Shown in pieces: positions 14,533 to 14,591 of a DNA stretch of 52,297 bases. How positions within the stretch are numbered: position 1 is the stretch's first letter; every line of letters begins with the position of its first letter. Source of the DNA: Gemmatimonadota bacterium (GTDB lineage: Bacteria; Gemmatimonadota; Gemmatimonadetes; Longimicrobiales; Gaopeijiaceae); contig JAJDXM010000091.1 in the NCBI GenBank assembly GCA_022823225.1, forward strand, positions 1 to 52,297, written 5' to 3'. A program made the translations under genes and the position numbers. The notes below the pieces were generated by a model. That model made no database searches. It was not told where the DNA came from and saw only the letters and a list, made by a program, of their open reading frames with translations.

Positions 14533-14591
14533 CATATTATCCGTTGACATCGTGCCATATTATCCGTTATCTTCAAGCCGAATTATCCGAT
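14533..14591 (+). repeat. Three 13-bp repeats at exact 23-bp period upstream of a DUF4143 ATPase gene
   Basis: CATATTATCCGTT occurs at 14533-14545 and 14556-14568, and a weaker copy CGAATTATCCGAT at 14579-14591, each 23 bases apart (about two helical turns). The set lies in the 321-base gap between the divergent VPS10 gene and the DUF4143 gene and overlaps a promoter-like -35. It looks like an operator array. A similar arrangement with a different unit surrounds the second DUF4143 gene. Confidence 0.85.
14544..14573 (+). promoter_or_regulatory. Promoter candidate overlapping the 23-bp repeats
   Basis: A perfect -35 TTGACA (14544-14549) begins in the end of repeat 1, and TATCTT (14568-14573) at 18-base spacing lies just after repeat 2. 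Protein bound to the repeats would block this promoter, which suggests autoregulation of the downstream ATPase gene. Confidence 0.4.

Follow-up and report, generated by a model that had tools for sequence, protein, structure and literature searches.

A direct-repeat array of exact 23-bp pitch overlies the promoter of a PDC-S01 ATPase-nuclease gene and is probably its cognate autoregulatory operator

The gene at 14685..15935 (plus strand) of the window, by which we mean the whole 52,297-nt stretch of Gemmatimonadota DNA analyzed here, encodes a 416-residue protein that combines a STAND-like AAA_14 ATPase, a winged helix and a DUF4143 PD-(D/E)XK nuclease domain, and its promoter lies inside an array of direct repeats with an exact pitch of 23 bp. 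We consider it probable that this array is the cognate autoregulatory operator of the gene, to which the encoded protein would bind, occluding the promoter and repressing its own synthesis.

The array (14533-14591, plus strand) consists of 13-bp units: CATATTATCCGTT at 14533..14545, an identical copy at 14556..14568, and CGAATTATCCGAT, with 3 mismatches, at 14579..14591. The start-to-start steps are 23 and 23, and the last unit is of a terminal type, GCCGAATxxTCCGAT, that is shared with two relatives (L036 and L043). The three units of exact period proposed in a preliminary description of this DNA are confirmed by the sequence and by a search for direct repeats of 23-bp period, made blind over 325 tiles of the window, in which this array ranks first with a score of 21.3; ranks 2-5 are taken by the downstream and upstream arrays of the other DUF4143 gene in the window, and the highest-scoring unrelated place reaches 9.9. 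The spaced pair ATTATCCG-N15-ATTATCCG has 2 occurrences, compared with 0.00 expected from shuffles. When up to 1 mismatch is allowed, the 13-mer is found only as these two copies in the whole 4.19-Mb genome and therefore has no other targets; a reading of the array as one site of a regulon is ruled out by this absence of the unit elsewhere.

The promoter is built from the units themselves. The tail of unit 1 makes a -35-like TTGACA (14544..14549, plus strand), and the tail of unit 2 makes a -10-like TATCTT (14568..14573, plus strand) at a spacer of 18, with TTATCT at 14567-14572 as an alternative -10 at a spacer of 17. The perfect TTGACA and the TATCTT had already been recognized over the copies, and we find that, with either -10, they form the only promoter-like pair within 14400-14720. 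The start codon is the TTG at 14685, behind a ribosome-binding site AGGAGG read from the sequence at 14671..14676 (plus strand); with this start, the array lies about 93 bp upstream of the first codon. Among homologues, in arrays of the GCC class, which is that of this gene, the -35 lies at the tail of unit -2 and the -10 at that of unit -1, with the last unit over the start region. In the TTGC class, TTGCAA of the last unit serves as the -35 box, and TAnncT follows exactly 23 bp downstream. The distance from -35 to -10 (6+17) equals the array pitch, and therefore any phase is in register. The pitch was probably set by the protein, because an archaeal homologue, which has no sigma factor, keeps 23 bp. 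Autoregulation, as expected from the start for such a gene, is thus well supported by position, the array overlapping the gene's own promoter with the hexamers in register with the units; repression itself is putative.

The protein has the residues expected of both an ATPase and a nuclease. Walker A (GPKTCGKT, residues 26-33, 14760..14783, plus strand), Walker B, and the PD-(D/E)XK residues E341, D343, E357 and K359 (15705..15761, plus strand), which form the E/D...ExK motif of such nucleases, are invariant in an alignment of 18 homologues. Two Pfam families are matched above their gathering cut-offs, PF13173 (AAA_14) with 39.5 bits (cut-off 27) and PF13635 (DUF4143) with 122.4 bits (cut-off 28.1), while a search of NCBIfam returned no family at E 0.01, and a sequence search of solved structures returned no relative (best E 0.56). 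An AF2 model of the protein (pLDDT 85.8, with low model confidence in the loop at 264-285) matches two archaeal STAND ATPases, 2qen (Z 15.1, rmsd 4.2, 252 residues) and 2fna (Z 13.3, rmsd 4.6, 252 residues), as well as the NBD-HD-WHD modules of CED-4/NLR proteins over residues 1-310, with residues 1-295 superposing, so that the modeled chain appears to have the NBD-HBD-WHD fold of STAND NTPases. Since the fold matches extend mainly over residues 1-297, the C-terminal domain was assigned from its motif and the Pfam match. The gene matches the PADLOC PDC-S01 model (PDLC04790, E 5.6e-66), as does the other DUF4143 gene at 19609 (E 2.5e-161), and both share the ATPase plus PD-(D/E)XK architecture of PDC-S01, for which presence and phylogeny have been described (PMC12988326). 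PDC-S01 is an experimentally unvalidated candidate that is reported to rank fourth in frequency among prokaryotic defence systems, at 29,494 bacterial and 9,986 archaeal systems (PMC12988326). Judged by its sequence, then, the protein belongs to the PDC-S01 family and is a putative phage-defence ATPase-nuclease. A Thermus AAA_14/DUF4143 gene is upregulated 6.6-fold in an Argonaute-positive strain carrying a plasmid (PMC4406477).

Another use for the array is conceivable: the protein may bind it as an activator, or the array may serve as a resting-state platform for a poised STAND oligomer that is triggered by an invader. The predicted STAND-like fold, nearest to archaeal STAND ATPases and CED-4/NLR apoptosome proteins, and the intact PD-(D/E)XK site are consistent with such a role, as are arrays of up to nine copies, which exceed the need of simple occlusion, and the many units that lie upstream of the -35. 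We nevertheless regard this role as rather unlikely, because the units overlap the -35, the -10 and the start region in register, which is the usual geometry of repression, and the triggering is hypothetical.

The other DUF4143 gene (PDC-S01, 19609..20850, minus strand) also has an array upstream (20850..20905, minus strand), in which CATTTGGCCGA occurs twice at 23 bp and CATTCGGTCGA follows at 22 bp over the ATG start codon. The preliminary description had judged the two upstream arrays alike in spacing, copy number and position but different in unit sequence. The difference in unit sequence and the 23-bp step are borne out; the weak third copy is not alike, since it stands at 22 bp and overlaps the ATG. 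The likeness in arrangement likewise extends only to the upstream array, because a second array of this gene went unmentioned there: just past the stop codon (19533..19566, minus strand), CATTTGGACGA and CAATTGGACGA occupy 19533-19543 and 19556-19566 at 23 bp. Nearly all relatives at least 80% identical to this gene (L126-L144) have arrays or units in the same orientation on both sides, of one unit type on both sides, and the sequences that flank these loci are of several kinds. For the gene at 14685 and almost its entire clade, the only array is the upstream one. In one genome (L240, 2579-2859), the array and the 5' part of the other DUF4143 gene are deleted, and what remains directly behind its bordering peptidase gene is an internal fragment.

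Arrays at both ends raise the possibility that the gene is by itself a mobile element whose ends are the arrays, where its own nuclease/ATPase would bind as TnsB does at its repeated sites in Tn7 ends, and that the overlap with the promoter is secondary. A permease-like ORF (16214..17503, plus strand) lies downstream of the gene at 14685, with which it is probably co-transcribed. At the permease locus, 8 of 20 other genomes of the same genus keep an array 37-386 bp before the permease although the body of the DUF4143 gene is deleted. The endpoints of these deletions differ, and the last 30-60 codons are often left. These eight loci with an array and no intact neighboring gene are L218, L223, L226, L229, L230, L233, L236 and L237. 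Arrays can thus outlive the DUF4143 gene, and the leftover array has probably been retained as a promoter for the permease. The deletions speak for turnover and dispensability; neither transposition nor toxicity follows from them. That the gene forms a toxin, defence or selfish cassette, as the preliminary description expected, is a possible reading. Its patchy distribution, its remnants and its transfer between phyla are in keeping with a dispensable, mobile gene, and the occurrence of the family on plasmids and viral contigs, together with the double arrays at several flanks, would suit a mobile element. Such an element is nonetheless improbable as the explanation of the arrays: the clade of the gene at 14685 has the upstream array almost exclusively, the two arrays of the other gene run in the same direction and are not inverted, the remnants retain gene pieces where clean excisions would be expected, and we found neither a target-site duplication nor a transposase domain. 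In Rhodothermales, one homologue locus (L152, 4238-6632) contains an extra 2.4-kb segment relative to a near-identical locus (L153), with a second copy of the array region; the segment also carries a gene pair that matches AbiLi/AbiLii defence models.

Direct arrays of the same pitch recur widely in the family. The homologues sampled number about 170, most of them taken from genomes within the window's phylum and the rest from other phyla; most sequences are MAGs, and the named relatives are mostly Gemmatimonadetes MAGs. A period scan of 92 upstream regions, requiring at least 10 of 12 bases to match, shows a period of 23 in 69 and of 46, its double, in 49, while other periods occur in 0-4 of the 92 and coding controls give 0 at 23. 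By likelihood score, 158 of 167 homologues exceed the shuffle threshold; we prefer the stricter figure of 145 of 167, which score above the best non-DUF4143 place in the window, because about 6% of tiles of real non-array DNA also pass the shuffle threshold. The copy number is mostly 3-5 and reaches up to 9. The 23-bp pitch is kept with different units in Rhodothermales, Thermoanaerobaculia, Holophagales, a gammaproteobacterial clade, Elusimicrobia and Clostridiales (8 copies), and in a Methanomassiliicoccales archaeon, where the array lies over an AT-rich promoter region. It is also found on plasmids of cultured Collinsella, Bacteroides, Prosthecochloris, Actinomyces, Lentilactobacillus, Mycobacterium and Spartinivicinus and in five viral contigs, so that the period spans Gemmatimonadota, Acidobacteriota, Bacteroidota, Chlorobiota, Actinomycetota, Bacillota, gammaproteobacteria, an archaeon and viral contigs; a Thermus homologue has no array. 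In alphaproteobacterial relatives of the other window gene, the pitch is 22 bp instead, and it is therefore a clade trait. The exact 22-bp arrays include those of Tateyamaria, Aminobacter, Agrobacterium pAt and Rhizobium plasmids (L282, L283, L284 and L287) and two in the window's own genome (L013 and L016). For one unit type, GTTGCAA-N16-GTTGCAA, there are 6 occurrences in 23 genomes, all before DUF4143 genes, and the reversed control gives 0. In 13 annotated plasmid regions, the homologues are solitary, with no recurring partner gene, and none of these regions shows the two-gene operon with an antitoxin that defines a type II toxin-antitoxin system. With no recurring partner, the reader of the array is most economically the encoded protein itself.

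If the encoded protein reads the array, the unit should change with the protein, and it does. The distance between units climbs smoothly with the distance between proteins (Mantel r 0.57, 137 non-redundant genes; 2000 permutations reach at most 0.10), although part of this correlation is common descent, because array and gene are linked. The units are also more conserved than the spacers between them, at 0.66-0.67 versus 0.32-0.34 for homologues at a protein distance below 0.25, and at 0.67 versus 0.34 for those below 0.15, the unit phase having been aligned by an unsupervised procedure. The cognate specificity proposed in the preliminary description, which had suggested checking for covariation across homologues, is therefore supported.

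To locate this signal in the protein, we calculated window-wise partial correlations within the clade (107 genes). They peak at residues 226-255 (winged helix), 264-285 (a basic loop), 321-355 (the nuclease-domain loop that directly precedes the catalytic E341xD343) and 366-390; most of the ATPase gives values near zero. In a regression, the 5' unit columns 0-4 are associated with loop 333-340 (beta 0.51) and with loop 264-285 (0.26) but not with the ATPase. The 3' columns 10-14 load on the ATPase and helical regions instead of the winged helix, and very little of the spacer columns is accounted for (R2 0.07). A branch co-change test, for which the tree was built without the columns of the candidate contact regions, covered 4560 residue-base pairs: of the 40 highest-ranking pairs, 21 involve residues of the three candidate contact regions (p = 6e-6) and 7 residues of the ATPase. 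The leading pairs include 338 with column 0, 275 with column 2, 274 with column 3, 337 with column 3, and 245 with columns 11/12. Because the regression places columns 10-14 elsewhere, the assignment of the 3' half to the winged helix rests on this co-change test. Strictly independent pairs on well-supported branches number only 2-3, which gives low power, and the branch co-change counts were used instead. One pair, R277 with column 3, had the top close-pair correlation and was set aside, since it ranks 263rd in the branch co-change test.

The covarying residues map to three segments of the gene, all on the plus strand. In the recognition helix of the winged helix (15411..15452), residues 243 and 245 covary with columns 10-12; in the basic loop (residues 264-285, 15474..15539), 274, 275 and 277 covary with the 5' part of the unit; and in the nuclease-domain loop (residues 333-340, 15681..15704), 336-338 covary with columns 0-3. 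Residues 336-337 are DN with TTGC, DH or DD with TTGA, EK mostly with xGCC and ED mostly with TCAT, and residue 245 is H with G, D with C and mostly E with A at column 10. The earlier expectation that the unit would covary with the winged-helix region is borne out by the within-clade signal and by the co-change of residue 245; the regression of the 3' columns does not agree with it, and the basic and nuclease-domain loops covary as well.

These residues bear directly on whether an unrelated host regulator reads an array that merely travels with the gene. Such a regulator would account for an array that persists without the gene at the permease locus, and binding by the encoded protein is itself only our inference; yet the 23-bp pitch is kept with different units in distant phyla and in an archaeon, the covariation involves residues of the encoded protein, and the unit is absent elsewhere in the genome, which together make this account very improbable. 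A chance or low-complexity repeat, in favor of which only the short length can be cited, is refuted by the shuffles, the period scan, the likelihood scores and the window scan, and with recurrence in more than 100 homologues its probability is practically nil.

As a cognate operator, the array would work as follows. One protein molecule would probably occupy each 13-15-bp unit, its winged-helix domain reading the 3' half and its nuclease-domain loop and nearby basic loop the 5' half, and adjacent molecules would align at the fixed 23-bp pitch, probably joined through their STAND/AAA+ modules. A filled array would cover the promoter and turn the gene off, since the -35 and -10 share the 23-bp spacing and the phase of the units. 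Derepression would follow when the protein is lost or leaves for another target or state. In STAND proteins the winged helix usually has a regulatory role within the protein and does not read DNA, which counts against this part of the mechanism. The predicted N-terminal fold resembles that of 2qen, 2fna and the CED-4/NLR modules; the present protein differs in that its winged helix and nuclease-domain loop covary with the units of the array, which suggests that these parts read DNA.

A bolder extension, which we hold only tentatively and think doubtful, is that the array is the cell's own DNA address, at which a STAND-type nuclease waits as a sensor: the bound protein would silence its gene and stay inactive until disturbance by an invader's DNA, polymerase or DNA-binding protein freed both expression and nuclease. 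If this were true, an exact-pitch array with a protein-specific unit would be part of the immune mechanism, and more than 20 paralogues could coexist in one genome without cross-talk.

Tandem, same-orientation, helically phased sites bound by a system's own protein are known from the iterons of plasmid RepA and from the TnsB sites of Tn7 ends, and toxin-antitoxin and C-protein operators are cases in which a regulator belonging to a defence-like unit acts on the promoter from which it is itself expressed. The present arrays resemble iterons and TnsB sites in being short tandem sites of one orientation at the protein's own gene or element; they differ in the exact pitch of 23 bp (22 in sister clades), in its equality with the -35 to -10 distance, in a unit that diversifies by clade, and in the STAND-nuclease itself. 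Relative to the toxin-antitoxin and restriction-modification control regions treated in PMC3874152, there is one gene here with no antitoxin or C protein, and a direct array in place of a short palindrome. The operator arrays are also what differs from PDC-S01 as described to date (PMC12988326), and our literature search found DUF4143 in one paper and nothing on arrays, operators or autoregulation of PDC-S01/COG1373. The exact-pitch array and its visible residue-base code offer a first concrete biochemical handle on this family (COG1373/AAA_14+DUF4143): the code predicts the DNA bound by each protein and the residues to mutate, suggests how about 25 paralogues share a genome without cross-regulation, and provides a system for studying the drift of protein-DNA specificity across domains of life, while the array can serve as a sequence marker for annotating family members.

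The 4.2-Mb genome from which the window derives (G000) has 27 DUF4143 matches in about 25 genes, some of them truncated, an unusually large and decaying set of paralogues. Several of these (L010, L015, L018, L024, L030, L032 and others) have inverted repeats over their promoters, each of its own sequence; these repeats were seen by eye, and individually only those of L010, L018, L024, L030 and L032 reach p ≤ 0.04. The direct array thus seems not to be universal in the wider family, many paralogues of this genome having inverted repeats instead, and DUF4143 genes seem to use two operator geometries: inverted repeats, and the direct arrays of the clades of both window genes.
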